64,000 nt of DNA, taken from Bacteroidia bacterium (GTDB lineage: Bacteria > Bacteroidota > Bacteroidia > Cytophagales > Cyclobacteriaceae). This document shows positions 8,588 to 21,406 of the stretch, one piece after another. Location: contig JAUILA010000007.1 of assembly GCA_030432655.1 (NCBI GenBank), forward strand, positions 62,001 through 126,000. The letters are read 5' to 3'. Numbering within the stretch: position 1 is the first letter of the stretch; every line of letters starts with the position of its first letter. The position numbers were made by a program, and so were the translations under genes. The notes beneath the pieces were generated by a model. It made no database searches. It saw only the letters and a program-made list of their open reading frames with translations, and was not told the origin of the DNA.

Positions 8588-9763
8588 TCAATTGGCCAGC
8601 GCCAGCCCGCATTTCTGCCGCATCAGGCTTTCAATAAAGTAATAATCGGCATAGCTGAGCGGCACATCGACCTCACTTCCAGCCGGCAAATGACCTACAC
8701 AATGTTCAATGATGAAGTTTCCATTGGTACCCGGCTCAGCCATATAACCTGATTCAAGGCTGTTCAGAATTTCATCCGCTGTGGCGGCGTAATTCTTTTC
8801 AGGAAGGTATCGATCCAGTTCCAATAAAGCAGACGCCAATATGGCCGCAGCTGAGGCGTCCCTCGGGGCATCTGCCGGCGCATTAAAATCCCAGACCGGA
8901 ACCTTATCCGCCGGCAGGTTCGGATGGTTAAGCACAAATTCCGCAATTTTTCCCGCCTGTTCCAGGTAGACTGAATCTCCGGTTTCCCGAAAGGTGACCG
9001 TATACCCATAAAGTCCCCATACCTGGCCACGCGCCCAGGCTGAATCATCCGCCAGGCCCTGGGCGGTTTTCTTCTCCTGCACCTCTCCGGTCTCAGGATT
9101 GTAGTTCAGTACGTGCCACGAACTGTTATCCTCCCGAAAGTGATTTTCGATGGTGGTATTGGCATGCGTTACGGCAATATCATAAAATGAACTGTCTCCC
9201 GTGTGTTTCGTCGCCCAGAAGAGGAGCTCCAGGTTCATCATATTGTCAATAATAACCAGGAAATCTTCCGGATCGGAGTCCCACGACCGGATACAGCCTG
9301 TGACGGGCGAAAATCGGGTCGACAAAGATTTGGCGCTGTTGAGGAGAATTTCATCGTATTCCGCCGAGGGAGCCAACCTGTTGGCATTCCCGTATGGACA
9401 ATACATCATAAAACCAAGGTCATGAGTGGCTGTGTTATATTGTTCCTTTTTCAGACTGTCCATCACCACCATCGCCTCGTCCCAGAAAACGGAATCACCG
9501 GTATTTTCAAAAAGATAAATAAGCGAACCCGGATAGAAGCCGCTGCACCACCAGCCTGATCCGCTGGTTATCAATTCGCCGTTTTCAAACGATCTGGGGA
9601 ATTCCCCGGGGCTTACGTTCTCCATCATGCCCTTATACTGTACAGCTGCCAGCTCCAGCGGCTCCACGGAGGCGGAATCGATGGATTCCGAAGATTGTTC
9701 TGACGGACTCGTCTGGCAGGCCATCATCATCACCATCAGTAATAGTGAAAGAAATTTTGTCAT
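8588..9763 (-). CDS. GH88-type unsaturated glucuronyl hydrolase lipoprotein
   Basis: A 391-residue (alpha/alpha)6-barrel hydrolase predicted to remove the unsaturated uronic acid left by polysaccharide lyases, by hydrating the 4,5 double bond. The signal peptide ends in MMACQ, a lipobox. GH88-like motifs are SGSGWWCSGFYPGSLIYL, HDLGFMMYCPYGN and IDNMMNLELLFWA, which hold the two conserved Asp residues, and WARGQVWGLYGYTVTF. It is followed by the GH31 gene, suggesting a small glycan-scavenging unit. No polysaccharide lyase, SusC or SusD gene is in the window. Confidence 0.9.
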   Translation of the reverse strand: MTKFLSLLLMVMMMACQTSPSEQSSESIDSASVEPLELAAVQYKGMMENVSPGEFPRSFENGELITSGSGWWCSGFYPGSLIYLFENTGDSVFWDEAMVVMDSLKKEQYNTATHDLGFMMYCPYGNANRLAPSAEYDEILLNSAKSLSTRFSPVTGCIRSWDSDPEDFLVIIDNMMNLELLFWATKHTGDSSFYDIAVTHANTTIENHFREDNSSWHVLNYNPETGEVQEKKTAQGLADDSAWARGQVWGLYGYTVTFRETGDSVYLEQAGKIAEFVLNHPNLPADKVPVWDFNAPADAPRDASAAAILASALLELDRYLPEKNYAATADEILNSLESGYMAEPGTNGNFIIEHCVGHLPAGSEVDVPLSYADYYFIESLMRQKCGLALAN

Positions 9764-9826
9764 AAATGCGTACGGTTCGTGATCAGGCGGTCAATATAGT
9801 GAATATTTAAATTGAACCTGTAATGA

Positions 9827-10315
9827 TCACGAAATCCGGTACTCCATCTGTGTATTGCACCGGGCATATGGAGTATCGCAGCCTGTGATTTCAGTAAACC
9901 CAAGCCGTTTATACAATCTAAGCGCCGAATCCAGGATCGTATTGGTTTCAAGGTAAATACGACGGGCGCCCTTGTCCTTCGCCGCCTGAAGAACCGCCTT
10001 TCCAAGAGACTCCCCAACCCCACGGCCTCTGACCCCCGGATCCACCGCCATCTTGGCCAGTTCAAAATCAAATTCCGTATCAGGTCCGTGCCAGGGAACA
10101 AGAGCACACACACCCACCGGCGTGTCATTCTCCAGTGCCACCTTGATCGCCCCTCCCCTGTTCAGGATATACCCATCCGGGTCATTCAGCATTTTCCGGT
10201 CGGGCTCTTCCATCGTGAAGAACTGGTTTATCCAGGCTTCGTTTAAGGATTTAAAGAATGGGGCATGGACAGGCTGATAATCCACTATTCGGATGGTTGT
10301 TGTTAAATTATTCAT
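9827..10315 (-). CDS. GNAT-family N-acetyltransferase
   Basis: A 162-residue acetyl-CoA-dependent acyltransferase. The acetyl-CoA-binding motif A is seen as VDPGVRGRGVGESLGKAVLQAA, with the R-G-x-G-x-[GS] loop, preceded by strand KMAVD and followed by IYLETNTILDSALRLYKRLGF (motif B). The substrate is unknown. It is the last of five closely spaced small genes on the minus strand (12200 to 9827), 51 bp after the DUF4287 gene, and is followed 63 bp later by the GH88 gene. Confidence 0.92.
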   Translation of the reverse strand: MNNLTTTIRIVDYQPVHAPFFKSLNEAWINQFFTMEEPDRKMLNDPDGYILNRGGAIKVALENDTPVGVCALVPWHGPDTEFDFELAKMAVDPGVRGRGVGESLGKAVLQAAKDKGARRIYLETNTILDSALRLYKRLGFTEITGCDTPYARCNTQMEYRIS

Positions 10316-10366
10316 GACCTTGAATTTTGTTAATTGTAATGACCCTGACCTGAGTGAGTAAATAGC

Positions 10367-10903
10367 TTACTCTTTTGAGGATTGCCTGTACGCTTCTTTT
10401 AAAACGCCGGCGAGGTCCTCGTCCACTTCATCGGGTGAAGTAAGGATCACGCGGTTGGTACACATCGTTCCGAACGGCCCTGAATCCAGGATCCGGTCGT
10501 TCTCCGGAGCGTCATCAAACTTAAGTCCCAGGTCAATTCTTGTTTTAGTACTTGGCTGAATCAGCGCAAACTGTCGTGCTGCCCGAAGTGACACATTGGC
10601 TTTCTTTGGCACCACCTCAACATCGCTGCCGAATTGCTCTACAATTCCCAGAAGTTTGTCATAAACCTGCTTCAGCTGCTCCTTGCCCTTGTACTGAGTA
10701 GATATAAGATCGGAATCATCGATCGAACCGGCATCTGTTTCGCGCGTTTTCAGCGCCACAAAATTGGCGTAGCCGTGGGTAAATCCGTGTTTTTCCTTAA
10801 GGTATTTCACCATCTCGCCGTGCTTTTGAAATCCCTTCGGCTTTACAATGTCAATCCACTCCTGGAGTGATTTCCCGGTTTTTTCTTTAAGACCTTCTTC
10901 CAT
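10367..10903 (-). CDS. DUF4287 + DUF5655 protein
   Basis: A 178-residue cytoplasmic protein with two recognisable small domains: an N-terminal DUF4287 segment (residues 1-55, TGKSLQEWIDIVKPKGFQKH, HGFTHGYANFVAL) and a C-terminal DUF5655 segment (about 70-175, containing KKANVSLRAARQFALIQPS and DLGLKF). The function of both is unknown; DUF5655 resembles small DNA- or nucleic-acid-associated domains by context only. It has no signal peptide or membrane segment. It starts 10 nt after the ABM monooxygenase gene. Confidence 0.85.
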   Translation of the reverse strand: MEEGLKEKTGKSLQEWIDIVKPKGFQKHGEMVKYLKEKHGFTHGYANFVALKTRETDAGSIDDSDLISTQYKGKEQLKQVYDKLLGIVEQFGSDVEVVPKKANVSLRAARQFALIQPSTKTRIDLGLKFDDAPENDRILDSGPFGTMCTNRVILTSPDEVDEDLAGVLKEAYRQSSKE

Positions 10904-10913
10904 GTTGTTATTG

Positions 10914-11231
10914 TTAGTTTATGTTAATTCCTTTTCCGCCGAGAATCTCGAGCGCCTGTCCGCCGGTTGGTTTGCCCTCCAGCATGGGCATCGCTTGCGA
11001 GATCAGCTGAGGCACCCCTTCCATCGCCAGTGAGGCATCATGGTCTTCCTTCGAATCCCACACCTCGGTGACATAAATATCATCCGGACGATCAGGATCC
11101 CGGCTGACGAGGTATAGGTGACAGGTGATTGCATCATTCATAATCTGCGAAGCCTTTATCAGTATTTCAGCCAGCGAATCCCCATTCCCTTCCTTTGCCC
11201 GCAGGCATCCGTGTAATCCATATTTACTCAT
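10914..11231 (-). CDS. Antibiotic biosynthesis monooxygenase (ABM) domain protein
   Basis: A 105-residue dimeric ferredoxin-like fold protein of the ABM/quinol monooxygenase family. The pattern LRAKEGNGDSLAEILIKAS ... CHLYLVSRDPDRPDDIYVTEVWDSKEDHDASL matches the two beta-alpha-beta halves. Such enzymes oxidise small aromatic compounds without a metal or cofactor, or act as stress-related quinone oxidases; the substrate here is unknown. It is 6 nt downstream of the TfoX-like gene, in the same minus-strand run. Confidence 0.85.
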   Translation of the reverse strand: MSKYGLHGCLRAKEGNGDSLAEILIKASQIMNDAITCHLYLVSRDPDRPDDIYVTEVWDSKEDHDASLAMEGVPQLISQAMPMLEGKPTGGQALEILGGKGININ

Positions 11232-15556: not shown

Positions 15557-17017
15557 TCAGTCCTGCCGGATATCACCGGATGGGTTATTACTGAAGGTAT
15601 TTCCACTTTCGTTCAAAACGGCATTTCCGGAACGTGTCCAGATACCATATGTCTGACTATTTGTTATGGAAGAATTAGTCAGGGTAAGCTGAGAACCAGG
15701 GCTGCTGCCAAACATGTAGATATTTGCACCTCGTCCGGCATCATTTCCGCCATTATTAATAACGGCCTGATTGATCAGGTTTACAGGGGTATTGGATCCC
15801 TGTATTTCAATGCCGAACCATGCACCGGCCCCATCCACCATACCATCAAATACAATTTGCTCCGATGCTGTTCCATCCGCGATAATGGCACCATCTGAAG
15901 TGACCCAAAGCCTTTTCCCGGTATCGAACAGACAAGTTACACCTGGGGCAAATGTCACTTCCGCCCTGAGTTCCGCACTGCTCAGAAAATGATATGGAAT
16001 GGCTTGTACGGGAATTGTTCCTGCATTATCAAACCGTGCATTGGTGTTTCCTGCAGATGCCACCTCTATGGCCTGAATCCCGTTTCCTGTATACACAGAA
16101 TTCTGATCCAGCATATAGATATTCTCCGCACCCAGGTGCAATGGTGCACTGGCGTTATCTGTAAAGGTATTGCTTTCAAACAGGTCTATGAGCGCATTAT
16201 TGCCATCTGAGAATATTCCATAGCCGTCGGATTGACTTATGAGTGTATTGGAAATACTTAAACGTGCGGGCACATTACTCTGCAAATGGATGGCTGTTTT
16301 TGCTGATACAAATGTGTCGGTACTTCCCGCGTGCAGGATTTGCACATGGTCTAACTTATTCTGCGTGTTGCTCGAAGCAATGGAGATCGCCCGCCAGTAT
16401 CCAGCCACCATCTCGCGGCCTCTTAAGATTATCGGCTCGCTTTCCGTTCCTTCCGCATGCAAAAACGCATTATTGCCGCTAAACCATAAGCGCACATCCG
16501 TACCGTTCTCAATTACCACACCCGGCGCCAGTGTTACCCCTGCGGTAGCATCAAGTGAGGACAGTGCATAATAATCCGGAATTGCAGGATCTTCAAACAA
16601 GTTCGGATAGCTCGTATCCGTCGTAATAGACGTGGGCAGCAATCCGCCGATATAAAGGATGATAACATCGGAAACGGTACCACCATTTTGATCATCCACC
16701 TGAATGGTAATTTCGTAAAGCCCTGCAATATCCGTATTGAAACTCGCATTGGTATTGCTGGAATTGGTCAATGCAGGATTGGATCCGTCCGGAGAGGTTG
16801 TAATGTCCCAGATAATATTGAGGGCATCACCATCCGGGTCCGAAGCAATAATGGATACATCACTTACAGATCCCGTGATCCCGATAATATCATCCCCCAC
16901 ATCCAGTGTGGGTGGATTGTTTACAGCAGTATCAGGATCATCTTCTGAACAGGAGGATAAATAAAACCCTGCCAGAATTAGTACGCAGGGTAGCATGTTT
17001 TTGATTAGATTTTTCAT
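15557..17017 (-). CDS. Lipoprotein with PKD-like domain and right-handed beta-helix
   Basis: A 486-residue exported protein. The signal peptide ends LSSCSEDD, a lipobox with acidic residues. Residues 35-130 are a PKD/Ig-like domain (NNPPTLDVGDDIIGITGSV, IIWDITTSPDGS, GLYEITIQVDDQNGG). Residues 150-480 have repeated short strands with I-x-N-x-x-I patterns (ISNTLISQSDGYGIFS, ALIDLFESNTFTDNASAPL, LTNSSITNSQTYGIWT) indicating a right-handed parallel beta-helix. It could bind or cleave surface polysaccharide, but no active site is evident. It follows the kinase gene after 124 bp, which suggests it belongs to the sigma/kinase locus. Confidence 0.82.
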   Translation of the reverse strand: MKNLIKNMLPCVLILAGFYLSSCSEDDPDTAVNNPPTLDVGDDIIGITGSVSDVSIIASDPDGDALNIIWDITTSPDGSNPALTNSSNTNASFNTDIAGLYEITIQVDDQNGGTVSDVIILYIGGLLPTSITTDTSYPNLFEDPAIPDYYALSSLDATAGVTLAPGVVIENGTDVRLWFSGNNAFLHAEGTESEPIILRGREMVAGYWRAISIASSNTQNKLDHVQILHAGSTDTFVSAKTAIHLQSNVPARLSISNTLISQSDGYGIFSDGNNALIDLFESNTFTDNASAPLHLGAENIYMLDQNSVYTGNGIQAIEVASAGNTNARFDNAGTIPVQAIPYHFLSSAELRAEVTFAPGVTCLFDTGKRLWVTSDGAIIADGTASEQIVFDGMVDGAGAWFGIEIQGSNTPVNLINQAVINNGGNDAGRGANIYMFGSSPGSQLTLTNSSITNSQTYGIWTRSGNAVLNESGNTFSNNPSGDIRQD

Positions 17018-17141: not shown

Positions 17142-19586
17142 CTACTGCACCTGGAGCAATGAATCCAGAGCGTCAACCTTCTTACTGGTTAACACAACCA
17201 GTCTGCTGGTACTGTCCAGATAGGATATATATTCCGCCAAAGCCAGCTGCAAGTAATTCCGTGCCTCCTGTAAGTCACCAGCTTTTTGGTAATATTCACC
17301 CGCCCAGTCATAAGCTTTGGCACGCTTTTGCGTGCTTATTTTTGGGGATTCGGAAACCGTTAGCGTCTTATTCACATAGTACTGAGCCGAATCCAAATTA
17401 TTCATTTTGATGAAAAGTGCTATCAGCGCATTATAGCTTGAAATATGCCAGCTGTTAAATTCATCTTTATAGACATCGTTCTGAATGGCAAGCGCCTTAG
17501 AGAAATAAAAATGAGCACTATCGTATTGATCCAATGCAGAAAAGGTATGCGCCAGATTGTAGGTATTCGTGGCAGTTTCCGCATGTTTTTTGCCGTAAAT
17601 GTTCTCTGCTATTCGTTTTGCTTTTCTGTTATAAGGAAGAGCTTCTTCTGCATTCCCGTTAGATTTAAGCAATCCGGATAACAAGTTAAGGTTAGCCAGG
17701 GTTCCAGGGAAATTGGAACCCATAATCCGTTCGCACAAATCAAGCGATTTCTTTTGATAAATAATGGCCTCATCGTATTGTTTCAGATCAACGTAAATAG
17801 CTGCCTGAATATAATAACTCTCTGCCAGCTGGATATTATAATGATCGGGCCAGATATTCTCCTCTAGTGCGATTGTTTCCTTCATTAGATATTCGGCAGA
17901 ATCAAATTTGCTTTTGTTTTTGTAAACATAGGCCAGACGTTTTAATACATCAGTGTACATGCTGTCCTCGCGTGGATAATCGATCTTCTCATATAAATTC
18001 AGCGCCCTGTTTAACAATATGGCGGATGAGTCATAATTCCCAATATCCCGCTGATATAATCCCATCTGAACTACATTACGAATAAACGGAGGAGAGATTG
18101 TCAGCATGGAATCGAGTGCTAAATTTTCCGCCTGGTTTAACACCTTTCCGGCATTATCATAATCTCCCATGTTCCGGTAAGAGCTGCTGATTGTATTCAG
18201 CAATTCAAGTTTAATCGCTGCGGGCCCATTATATCCGGATAATTGCTGATGTCCTTTTTCAAGTAATTGAAATACTGTAAGCGTATCACCCTGAGCGAAT
18301 GATGGATCTGCTTCCCTGAATAAATTACTAAGAAAATTTTTTGTAAGTGTAGCCACCTGCTCATTCTGAACAGCTTTATCCCGCTGTTCCGTGGCCTCCC
18401 TTGCCTGCCATAAACTGGCCATCAGGCCGGCGAGCAAAGAAAGAATGATTAAGGAAAAACTAATCACCTGTAGCCTGTTTCTCCGAATGTATTTTTTTAA
18501 ACGGTACCCATTGCTTTGGGGCATTGCAAACAGCGGATAACCTTCTTCGAGCCGCTTAACGTCCTGAAGCAGATCAGCTGCTGAATTGTAACGCTCATCA
18601 GGATTTGCCTGGGTACATTTCGCAATAATAGAGGCAGGTTCTGCGGGTATGGCGGAAGAGATCTGCAATTCTGGCGTGTCGGTAAGCGGTCCTATTCTGG
18701 TAAGCTGCTCGGTAGAAGCCGCATAACTTCGCACCGGTGAAGTACCTGAAAGAACAGTATGCAGCAAGATACCCAGCTGATAGATATCTGTAGCGGCAGA
18801 TAAGGGTTGTCCGGCCAGCTGTTCCGGTGCTGCGATGGAGGGTGTACCAAAAAAGGTTCCGGGCTCATGATTTTCATCTTCATTAAGCTTCATGGAAATG
18901 CCAAAATCAAGCAGTTTTATCTGTCCAAGGCTATTTACAAATATATTGGAAGGCTTCAGGTCAAGGTGCAGCGTAAACCTGCTGTGCGCAAAGGCAACAG
19001 CCTTCACAACTTCTTTGAATAGTGCCAATCTGCCGGAAGTAGCAGGCTTCATTCGTTTCAGGTAGGTATCAACTGCCTCGCCATCCACAAACTCCATGAT
19101 AAAATACAGAATACCGTTCCCTGTAATACCGGCGTCCAGAAGCCTGGCTATATTCGGATGCTGAAGTCCGGCCAGGATCTGTTGCTCAGCTTTTTTGACA
19201 TTTTCCTTCCGAACCCTGACTGATCGGGCAGGAAAACATTTAATGGCTACACGCTGTTCAAACTCCCCATCGCAACGCTCAGCCAGGTAGACATTGCTCA
19301 TTCCCCCTTTTCCCAGTAAGGAATCCACGCGATAGTTCCCAACCACTTCACCTTGTTCCAGCGTGGGGATTTCCCCCGGGGACCACCCACCTGCCAGGGA
19401 TTGTTGTAATTCCTGGAAATACGCAATCGCTGTATCTTCACTTTTAAGCATCTCACGGAGAATGGTTTTTAGCGACTCCCTGTTTCCGCATGTTTGGTCA
19501 ATAAGCTTATCACGCTCTTCAGGCGGAACGCTCAGGCATTTCTCATAAACCTGTTCCAGTTCGGCGAGTGTATATCCTTCTTTCAT
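17142..19586 (-). CDS. Membrane-anchored Ser/Thr protein kinase with TPR domain
   Basis: An 814-residue protein. A Hanks-type kinase domain occupies residues about 85-350: glycine loop GKGGMSNVYLAE, Lys116 in VAIKCF, catalytic loop HLDLKPSN (Asp209), DFG 227-229, and APEQ. The usual Arg before the catalytic Asp is Leu208, so this is a non-RD kinase. One membrane helix (about 372-394) precedes a helical region with TPR repeats (about 430-800: YNLAHTFSALDQYDSAHFYFSKAL and similar). ATG 19586 overlaps the sigma factor stop as ATGA, so the two are translationally coupled. It probably phosphorylates the partner sigma factor or a related target; that is inferred from gene pairing. Confidence 0.92.
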   Translation of the reverse strand: MKEGYTLAELEQVYEKCLSVPPEERDKLIDQTCGNRESLKTILREMLKSEDTAIAYFQELQQSLAGGWSPGEIPTLEQGEVVGNYRVDSLLGKGGMSNVYLAERCDGEFEQRVAIKCFPARSVRVRKENVKKAEQQILAGLQHPNIARLLDAGITGNGILYFIMEFVDGEAVDTYLKRMKPATSGRLALFKEVVKAVAFAHSRFTLHLDLKPSNIFVNSLGQIKLLDFGISMKLNEDENHEPGTFFGTPSIAAPEQLAGQPLSAATDIYQLGILLHTVLSGTSPVRSYAASTEQLTRIGPLTDTPELQISSAIPAEPASIIAKCTQANPDERYNSAADLLQDVKRLEEGYPLFAMPQSNGYRLKKYIRRNRLQVISFSLIILSLLAGLMASLWQAREATEQRDKAVQNEQVATLTKNFLSNLFREADPSFAQGDTLTVFQLLEKGHQQLSGYNGPAAIKLELLNTISSSYRNMGDYDNAGKVLNQAENLALDSMLTISPPFIRNVVQMGLYQRDIGNYDSSAILLNRALNLYEKIDYPREDSMYTDVLKRLAYVYKNKSKFDSAEYLMKETIALEENIWPDHYNIQLAESYYIQAAIYVDLKQYDEAIIYQKKSLDLCERIMGSNFPGTLANLNLLSGLLKSNGNAEEALPYNRKAKRIAENIYGKKHAETATNTYNLAHTFSALDQYDSAHFYFSKALAIQNDVYKDEFNSWHISSYNALIALFIKMNNLDSAQYYVNKTLTVSESPKISTQKRAKAYDWAGEYYQKAGDLQEARNYLQLALAEYISYLDSTSRLVVLTSKKVDALDSLLQVQ

Positions 19587-20197
19587 GAACTGATTTTTGA
19601 TAAATGAACGAATAACCAATTGCGCGCCATTTGCCATTTGCGCTTCACTGTTGCCGGGGATATGTTTACCACTTCAGCGGTTTCCTTGATGCTTAGCCCA
19701 GCAAAAAAGCGGCATTCCACGATTCGCCCGTAAATAGTATCCTCTGCCTCAAGCTGCAACAGCAATTCGTTAAAGTTGATCAGTTTAGCCGATGTGGCAT
19801 CTGACATCACCAGCAACTCATGGACCTCATCTATTGACTCCGTCTTAATATTCTCCCCTCTTTTAATTGCTTTTTTACTACGCGCCGCATTCAGCAATAC
19901 CTGGCGCATGGCTTTGGCCGCCACGCTGTAATAATGCTTTCTGCTTTCCCATTGCGATTCTCCTTTAGCTAGTTTTAAATAAGCTTCATGGACAATGGCG
20001 GTAGTATTTAAGGTTGCGGCGCCATGGAAATTAAAGCGGATTCCCTTAGCAATCTTCCTTAATTCATTATAGATCACGGGAAATATGAATGCATACGCTT
20101 CTTCGTCACCTTCATAAGCTTGCCGCAAATACTGGGTAATATCTTCCTTCTCCGGAGAATTATTAACCTGACGGGCCTTATTGTTTGCCTGATTCAT
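19583..20197 (-). CDS. ECF-subfamily RNA polymerase sigma factor (TIGR02999-like)
   Basis: A 204-residue sigma-70-type factor. Region 2 spans about residues 30-100 (EAYAFIFPVIYNELRKIAKGI, TAIVHEAYLKL). Region 4 spans about 140-200 (YGRIVECRFFAGLSIKETAEVVNISPATVKRKWQMARNWL), including the helix-turn-helix. The family is regularly paired with Ser/Thr kinases rather than with a classical anti-sigma factor. No anti-sigma gene is nearby. It is followed by the kinase with an ATGA overlap. The 255-bp divergent region upstream contains interlocking inverted repeats. Confidence 0.94.
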   Translation of the reverse strand: MNQANNKARQVNNSPEKEDITQYLRQAYEGDEEAYAFIFPVIYNELRKIAKGIRFNFHGAATLNTTAIVHEAYLKLAKGESQWESRKHYYSVAAKAMRQVLLNAARSKKAIKRGENIKTESIDEVHELLVMSDATSAKLINFNELLLQLEAEDTIYGRIVECRFFAGLSIKETAEVVNISPATVKRKWQMARNWLFVHLSKISS

Positions 20198-20247
20198 TAT
20201 TCTCTAAAGTGTTACGCTTAAAAAAGGGTTGATGTCGGTACCGTACG

Positions 20248-20288
20248 AAAATTCAACAGGAGGAATTGAATTTTACCGGTAATTCAAT
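20248..20288. promoter_or_regulatory. Interlocking inverted repeats upstream of the ECF sigma factor
   Basis: AAAATTCAA (20248-20256) and TTGAATTTT (20266-20274) form a perfect 9-bp inverted repeat. ATTGAAT (20265-20271) also pairs with ATTCAAT (20282-20288) around the 10-bp palindrome TTACCGGTAA (20273-20282). Three TTGAATT-type half-sites in 41 bp suggest a cooperative operator in the region shared by the sigma factor gene (minus) and the lipoprotein gene at 20453 (plus). Confidence 0.45.
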
Positions 20289-20452
20289 ATATAAAAAATT
20301 ACTGAAGACCAACAACTTATGCCGGCTCTGGTAGAGTTAAAGACCTCCAGTTCATCTAAATACTACTCCCAGGATAGTGAAAACTTACCCTTTCAAGGGA
20401 TAGCTTTCGGAGGAATTCACTGTGAAGTCTGTAAATTTCCTATCTTGAATGC

Positions 20453-21406
20453 ATGAATTATTCTAACCATTACTATTTTAACCTGATCATCATCCTCTTT
20501 TTATCCGGATGTAACCCACCGGCTGATGAGAATACTGAATCCAGCACGGATAGTGAACCGACTACAGAAAGCCAATCATTAGTCACGGAAGTCATTACCA
20601 ATGCGATGGATTTCGAATTACCGGACTCACTCCCTTCCGGCTGGCATACGTTCCGTTACATCAATAAATCCGAAGAGGTTCATTTCTTTGTACTTGAAAA
20701 AATGCCGGACAGCATTCGGTTTGAGGATTACAAAAGGGACATATTCCCTCCCTATCTGGCTGCTAACGATTTGATGATCCAGGGTGACCCGGAGGCGGCC
20801 ATGGCTCAATTTGCAGACATCCCGGAATGGTTCAGCCGGGTGGAAGTCGGTGGGGGTGTAGGACTAACCTCTCCGCAAAGCACGGCCGAAGCCACTTTTT
20901 ACCTGGACCCGGGGACCTATGTGATGGAATGCTATGTCCGGATGCCCAACGGAACCCCTCATGCCCTGGTGGGGATGATTACAGAACTTATCATCACACA
21001 GGAAGAAAGTGAAATGGACCCGCCGCAGGCAGATCTTGAGATCTCGCTCTCCACAGAGGGAATTTCTTTTCCTGACACCCTGAATTCCGGTGATCATATG
21101 CTCTCTGTGCAATTCGTGGATCAGCAAAAATACGAACACATGCTTGGCCATGATATCAATCTTGTAAGACTGGAACAGGGTGCTTCACTGGATTCATTGG
21201 CAGGTTGGTTGAATACGGTAGATTTCCAGGCATTCAGGACCCCGGCGCCTACTGGCTTTGATTTTCTCGGCGGTATGGAGGACCTGCCGGCCGGACAAAC
21301 CGGGTACTTTCCTGCATCCCTGGAACCGGGAGACTATGTGCTGATCTCTGAAATACCTATGGCCCTGGACAGAAATATGTTTCATCGGTTCGTGGTGGTT
21401 CCGTGA
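20453..21406 (+). CDS. Lipoprotein with two tandem cupredoxin-like domains
   Basis: A 317-residue exported protein with lipobox LFLSGCNPP. Two related halves (about 45-165 and 180-317) share the pattern F-x-[LF]-PD-[ST]-L-x-SG-x-[HW]-x-[LF] at their start and L-[DE]-PG-x-Y-V-[LM] near their end (AEATFYLDPGTYVMECYV; FPASLEPGDYVLISEIP). This resembles cupredoxin-like folds, but I do not see a complete His-Cys-His-Met copper site. A TATCTTGA box overlaps the region just before the ATG, so the mRNA may be nearly leaderless. It is divergent from the ECF sigma factor gene. Confidence 0.75.
   Translation: MNYSNHYYFNLIIILFLSGCNPPADENTESSTDSEPTTESQSLVTEVITNAMDFELPDSLPSGWHTFRYINKSEEVHFFVLEKMPDSIRFEDYKRDIFPPYLAANDLMIQGDPEAAMAQFADIPEWFSRVEVGGGVGLTSPQSTAEATFYLDPGTYVMECYVRMPNGTPHALVGMITELIITQEESEMDPPQADLEISLSTEGISFPDTLNSGDHMLSVQFVDQQKYEHMLGHDINLVRLEQGASLDSLAGWLNTVDFQAFRTPAPTGFDFLGGMEDLPAGQTGYFPASLEPGDYVLISEIPMALDRNMFHRFVVVP

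Follow-up and report, generated by a model that had tools for sequence, protein, structure and literature searches.

The analysed window is a stretch of 64,000 nt from a Bacteroidia bacterium of the Cyclobacteriaceae (GCA_030432655.1, contig JAUILA010000007.1, positions 62,001-126,000 of the forward strand). Its genes of interest encode an ECF sigma factor, a Ser/Thr kinase with tetratricopeptide repeats (TPRs) and a PKD/beta-helix lipoprotein (Table 1). The start codon of the kinase (ATG at 19586) and the stop codon of the sigma factor (TGA, 19585-19583) share the letters ATGA, and the overlap noted in the initial annotation was thus found at 19583-19586 of the minus strand. A longer open frame of the kinase, starting at 19637, is given in the ORF listing. 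Upstream of the sigma gene and divergent from it lies a lipoprotein-like gene of 317 aa (window 20453-21406, plus strand). A paralogue of this gene (37%) is present on contig C7, and a second sigma-kinase pair, elsewhere in the source genome, has a weak homologue in its vicinity (L339 4940-5806).

Table 1 Features of the sigma-kinase locus in window coordinates.
Feature	Position	Strand	Basis
ECF sigma factor, 204 aa, PF07638/TIGR02999	19583..20197	-	profile match
N-T-T of the NTTA motif (Asn64, Thr65, Thr66), region 2.2	20000..20008	-	alignment
Thr66 codon, predicted phosphosite	20000-20002	-	mechanism by analogy with systems described in the available text of PMC8999054 and PMC13147305
Membrane Ser/Thr kinase with TPRs, 814 aa	17142..19586	-	ORF and profile match
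Helical module at the kinase N-terminus, residues 1-82, with helices predicted at 7-18, 22-33 and 37-66	19341..19586	-	
Protein kinase domain, residues 85-341	18564..19334	-	profile match
Leu208 of HLD, codon CTT, non-RD residue	18963..18965	-	
Activation segment DFG...APEQ, 30 residues	18819..18908	-	
Predicted transmembrane segment, residues about 374-392	18411..18467	-	hydropathy
TPRs, about residues 446-790 (approximate limits), probably a sensor in the periplasm	17217..18251	-	profile match
PKD/beta-helix lipoprotein, 486 aa, candidate third component	15557..17017	-	

The sigma factor matched TIGR02999 with 174.4 bits (cut-off 126.15) and PF07638 with an E-value of 1e-44 (153.1 bits, cut-off 21.1). 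The kinase matched PF00069 (E = 2.8e-43) and TPR families, in agreement with the gene identities proposed in the initial annotation. Region 2.2 of the sigma factor reads N64-T65-T66-A67 in place of the acidic DAED of ordinary ECFs, and both Thr65 and Thr66 were invariant in a 19-row alignment of the sigma family (A1). In a larger set of 79 sigma rows, the column of the predicted phosphosite contained Thr in 70 rows, Ser in eight and Val in one (L063), and the four-position motif was devoid of Asp and Glu in 56 rows and kept an acidic residue in 23. The loss of DAED together with the retention of Thr or Ser at this column points to phosphorylation. Six other ECFs of the same genome were examined; region 2.2 was readable in four of them and acidic in all four (e.g. 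EAED and EAEE). A search of the PDB with the sigma alignment profile returned no chain at E ≤ 0.001.

These features correspond to those of the ECF43 group, whose consensus is QTTA according to the available text of two reports (PMC8999054, PMC13147305). In the window sigma factor, DAED is replaced by uncharged residues (NTTA), a Thr (Thr66) occupies the position of EcfK T51 and of the EcfP phosphosite, and the neighbouring gene encodes a Hanks kinase, with no anti-sigma family matched among the neighbours scanned. The system is very probably an ECF43-type phospho-activated sigma factor, as assigned by motif, phosphosite and gene neighbours. The initial annotation had proposed a possible control of the sigma factor by kinase signalling; such control now appears well supported by homology to the already established ECF43 mechanism. 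While its observations stood and its interpretation was supported in part, the initial annotation had missed the decisive marker, namely NTTA with the predicted phosphosite Thr66. For EcfK of X. citri, the available text of PMC13147305 describes a T51A variant that retains its function owing to compensation by another site. Therefore, Thr66 may not be the sole switch of the window sigma factor.

The kinase retains the residues that define Hanks-type Ser/Thr kinases, namely the VAIK Lys, the alpha-C Glu, the HxD Asp, the Asn and the DFG Asp, and thus looks catalytically competent. These residues were invariant in 65 of 65 sigma-linked kinases except for one Asn-to-His replacement. A pseudokinase was rejected because the catalytic residues are intact. 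Between the kinase domain and the TPRs, hydropathy revealed a hydrophobic stretch, which is preceded by residues rich in Lys and Arg, suggesting that the TPRs are probably periplasmic. The best PDB match of the kinase was 9eed_A (residues 9-287, E = 3.6e-36, N-terminus included), an entry that corresponds to PknS in the available text of PMC13147305.

The association between the two genes is conserved over large distances. A same-strand kinase gene lies directly downstream of the sigma gene in 66 of 78 loci of the same phylum, comprising 34 of 38 within the class and 32 of 40 outside it. From the matches in phylum genomes, 40 of a longer list were taken, and from the family-genome search all places listed except G829, at a contig edge. 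A set of 80 named loci, obtained as matches to alignment A1 and drawn from Bacteroidota, Rhodothermia/Balneolaceae, Acidobacteria, Gemmatimonadetes, Phycisphaerae and other lineages, likewise gave 66 with an adjacent same-strand kinase. Such a kinase was lacking in 12 phylum loci and in 12 named loci, and two further named loci were located near contig ends. The two sets share a few loci (e.g. L182 = L160 and L183 = L161). Since the pair is kept family-wide, a chance linkage of sigma factor and kinase is excluded. Sequence identities of the sigma factors and of their kinases were correlated (r = 0.63 over 65 pairs, with 0 of 1000 permutations as high), a value that still includes shared species history.

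Close to home, the distribution of the sigma factor is patchy. It was detected in seven of 59 relatives (E ≤ 1e-10) and 32 of 245 family genomes (E ≤ 1e-15), and, at E ≤ 1e-20, in four of 395 class genomes and in 57 of 395 phylum genomes, with almost all of the latter belonging to other classes. Among named relatives, the nearest were on a contig with the label Lentimicrobium sp. (64%) and in two Marivirga species (52%). At E ≤ 1e-15, two Hanks kinases were detected in the source genome, one on contig C44 (the window kinase) and one on C46, and both adjoin sigma factors of this kind. In the second pair (L054/L339 on C46, about 18000-20930), the sigma factor has DTSA with Ser at the phosphosite and the kinase has HLD; the pair is divergent from an ordinary ECF gene (L339 3119-3619). 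In the Marivirga-type loci (L155-L161), the region upstream of the kinase-linked sigma gene contains a divergent gene for an ordinary ECF (e.g. L159 1071-1673), in some cases with an 80-aa gene behind this ECF gene (e.g. L159 851-1093).

No anti-sigma family was matched by the five window proteins and ten further neighbours scanned, as the initial annotation had stated for this locus. The neighbours listed or scanned gave no sign of the widespread anti-sigma gene beside homologues that it had named as evidence against its reading. Ordinary anti-sigma control was rejected, as no candidate was found among these neighbours; the divergent placement of ordinary ECF genes relative to the kinase-linked sigma genes, in the Marivirga-type loci and near the second pair, was also counted against it. 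Footprinting of the region upstream of the sigma gene in 11 loci gave no convincing common promoter, and a promoter pattern scan remained at chance level.

The beta-helix lipoprotein gene follows the kinase gene after 124 bp on the same strand. Acidic residues after the lipoprotein Cys are a sign of surface location, and the leader together with such residues suggests that this protein is a surface lipoprotein. It may be a target of the sigma factor or a sensor. One possible extension of the ECF43-type scheme, compatible with it and to our judgement slightly short of even odds, is that the lipoprotein forms an integral third part, either as a surface sensor feeding the kinase or as the main target of the sigma factor. 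The window's clade and its sister clade comprise 19 loci, and in 13 of them the lipoprotein gene accompanies the pair; the source genome has just one other clear homologue and a weak one. The linkage amounts to five of 11 loci in the window's clade, counting the window itself and L181, which was placed there by similarity and not by the tree, and to all eight in the sister clade, where the gene lies 1-153 bp upstream of the sigma open frame on the same strand. The orientation of the gene, which is not conserved, speaks against an integral part, as do the six Marivirga-type pairs, which have no beta-helix gene beside them although homologues occur elsewhere in their genomes. Also against it, members of the family are widespread, occurring in 62 of 245 genomes, and G825 has a copy with 53% identity to the window protein (L338 5580-7034) but no sigma or kinase gene in the 12 kb examined there.

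The two closest relatives differ from the window in this region. Exactly between the kinase and beta-helix genes, they carry a lipoprotein-like gene of 204-218 aa (L340 6330-6986 and L181 9075-9689; 41% identical to each other, with no Pfam family), where the window has nothing. In L181, the beta-helix homologue is split over two frames (9728-11216), representing a broken gene or an assembly error.

The catalytic loop of the window kinase reads HLDLKPSN. Leu208 (codon CTT) thus replaces the Arg that precedes the catalytic Asp in RD kinases, as the initial annotation had observed. The alignment of the HxD motif in homologues, which it had proposed as a check, revealed the non-RD state as a clade-wide trait, so that the Leu is no one-off. 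For this comparison, we built a kinase tree of 65 rows, made up of the window and 64 further loci. Of the 66 loci in which a kinase adjoins the sigma gene, the incomplete L066 and L169 were excluded, as were the 12 of 78 loci with no adjacent same-strand kinase. The HxD motif and the activation segment were omitted from the tree construction. All ten kinases in the window's clade (support 100/97) were HLD, and so were all nine of a second supported clade that includes the other pair of the source genome. Among the remaining rows, HLD was found in L057, which stands alone, HQD in four and HGD in one. The best tree required seven changes of HxD type, and a single origin of HLD was neither rejected (AU test: p = 0.09) nor demonstrated.

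Non-RD kinases made up 24 of 34 readable sigma-linked kinases in the class Bacteroidia (window included) compared with one of 31 outside it (Fisher's exact test ignoring relatedness: p = 6e-9). HRD was present in 57 of 65 readable kinases of the named loci. Scattered non-RD kinases outside the class were observed in L330, L327 and L323 (HCD, HGD and HQD). A PF00069 search of 198 class genomes yielded 30 loci, in which kinases with no sigma partner were mostly HRD, with a few HQD, HLD, HHD and HFD, indicating that non-RD motifs extend beyond sigma-linked kinases. No paper joining an ECF sigma factor and a non-RD kinase, and none joining a sigma factor, a threonine kinase and Marivirga, was found in the open-access literature; the clade may be described elsewhere.

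The Leu of HLD might have arisen by loose drift with no regulatory meaning, in an otherwise ordinary ECF43 pair that uses loop phosphorylation. The HxD residue is also Gln, Gly, Lys or Ser in scattered relatives, as drift would allow. However, Leu is fixed in ten of ten and nine of nine members of the two supported clades while its codon changes among CTT, CTG, CTC, TTA and TTG, a constancy that argues for selection over drift, and all other catalytic residues are retained. The activation segment averaged 28.3 aa in HLD kinases against 32.9 aa, core Thr residues numbered 0.55 per loop against 1.9, and five of 20 HLD kinases had no Ser or Thr in the loop core compared with none of 40 HRD kinases. 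RD relatives of the same class are already short-looped (mean 29.1 aa), as expected if the Leu had no regulatory meaning, and the three supported independent pairs give no significance. Therefore, we make no claim on loop length or Thr content in relation to the RD state. Taken together, drift appears a rather doubtful explanation for the Leu.

The initial annotation had further suggested that activation-loop phosphorylation may not be needed. In the window kinase, the loop core retains a single Thr and a single Ser. In the available text of PMC8463890, the plant non-RD receptor kinase EFR is regulated by activation-loop phosphorylation, and low catalytic activity in vitro is reported for non-RD kinases. 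Given the short loops of RD relatives, the Thr in the window loop and the case of EFR, an activity of the window kinase independent of loop phosphorylation stays a conjecture, possible but unproven. The stable non-RD clade suggests that switching occurs more likely by dimerisation, by the N-terminal module or by substrate docking than by docking of a phosphorylated loop on the HRD Arg.

The N-terminal module comprises about 80 residues and was predicted to form three helices (AF2 mean pLDDT 82). It marks sigma-linked kinases. Its profile matched 126 of 129 such kinases, on which it had been trained, so that this count is not independent; among the 30 background loci of the class, it was present only in the two that are sigma-linked. 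We also examined 70 of 72 kinase matches in five genomes of other classes: of 38 sigma-linked kinases, 35 had the module, against 14 of the 32 that were unlinked (odds ratio 15, p = 1.4e-5, uncorrected for common descent). The AF2 model of the module had no PDB match with an E-value below 1 and no known fold was recognised; an anti-sigma-like fold is accordingly unsupported. The N-terminal segment of PknS is conserved among Xanthomonadaceae and possibly functional, according to the available text of PMC13147305. The module is a candidate for sigma docking.

Combining these elements, the kinase could be a rebuilt non-RD receptor that works with no loop phosphorylation, in which the module docks the unphosphorylated sigma factor and the beta-helix surface lipoprotein gives or receives the signal, forming a three-part pathway from outside to the sigma factor; we consider this composite unlikely. 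Less probable still is a kinase with no catalytic action on the sigma factor, which would hold or release it through the module much as a membrane anti-sigma factor does, while the non-RD domain would serve as a conformational switch: the association of the module with sigma-linked kinases (uncorrected for common descent in the five-genome comparison) and the description of EFR as working without its own catalytic activity in the available text of PMC8463890 would fit it, but the nearly invariant catalytic residues, the loss of DAED with Thr or Ser kept at the phosphosite, and the lack of a significant PDB match to the module model stand against it.

The best explanation is therefore an ECF43-type switch, in which the membrane kinase would phosphorylate and activate the sigma factor, and we give it a probability of about 0.82. 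The sigma factor would be made in an inactive form because its region 2.2 is devoid of the acidic residues that grip the beta' subunit of RNA polymerase. The TPR domain of the membrane kinase would perceive a signal from the envelope, and the kinase would phosphorylate Thr66 of NTTA, possibly together with linker residues. The new negative charge would then enable the sigma factor to bind RNA polymerase and transcribe its regulon, and an anti-sigma factor would be unnecessary.

Sigma factor phosphorylation is a recently established transcription switch that has so far been worked out in a few Proteobacteria. The window locus extends its sequence signature to Bacteroidia. The design of the switch is already known from Vibrio and Xanthomonas; what appears new here is a conserved non-RD partner kinase, in which the HRD Arg is stably lost. 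Moreover, a single genome provides natural variants, with Hanks kinases beside a Thr-type (NTTA) and a Ser-type (DTSA) sigma factor, both kinases being HLD. These variants make testable the role of the HRD Arg in bacterial receptor kinases and the specificity between kinase and sigma factor.

The closest known system, as described in the available text of PMC13147305, is EcfK-PknS of Xanthomonas citri (ECF43). Like the window pair, it pairs the gene of an ECF sigma factor with a neighbouring gene for a membrane Hanks kinase that carries TPRs at its C-terminus and an N-terminal extension of about 80 residues, and EcfK has likewise lost the DxxD of region 2.2 and has Thr at the phosphosite. PknS phosphorylates T51 and linker sites of EcfK. 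However, PknS has a canonical H/YRD catalytic loop whereas the window kinase has HLD, and EcfK has QATE and also uses the linker Thr106 whereas the window sigma factor has NTTA. The regulon of EcfK is a T6SS, while the window pair adjoins a beta-helix lipoprotein gene. In EcfP-PknT of Vibrio parahaemolyticus, also ECF43, the motif is STTA instead of NTTA; the portions available of PMC8999054 and PMC8103513 describe EcfP as intrinsically inactive unless phosphorylated, the neighbouring PknT as phosphorylating the second Thr and thereby supplying the missing charge, and the system as responding to polymyxin. ECF59 and the former ECF60 are kinase-linked with Ser at the site, in the available text of PMC8103513; they resemble the DTSA sigma factor of the source genome, while the window sigma factor has Thr. 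Finally, the plant receptor EFR is, like the window kinase, a membrane receptor kinase devoid of the HRD Arg, but it is eukaryotic and has Cys instead of Leu at this position (PMC8463890, available text).
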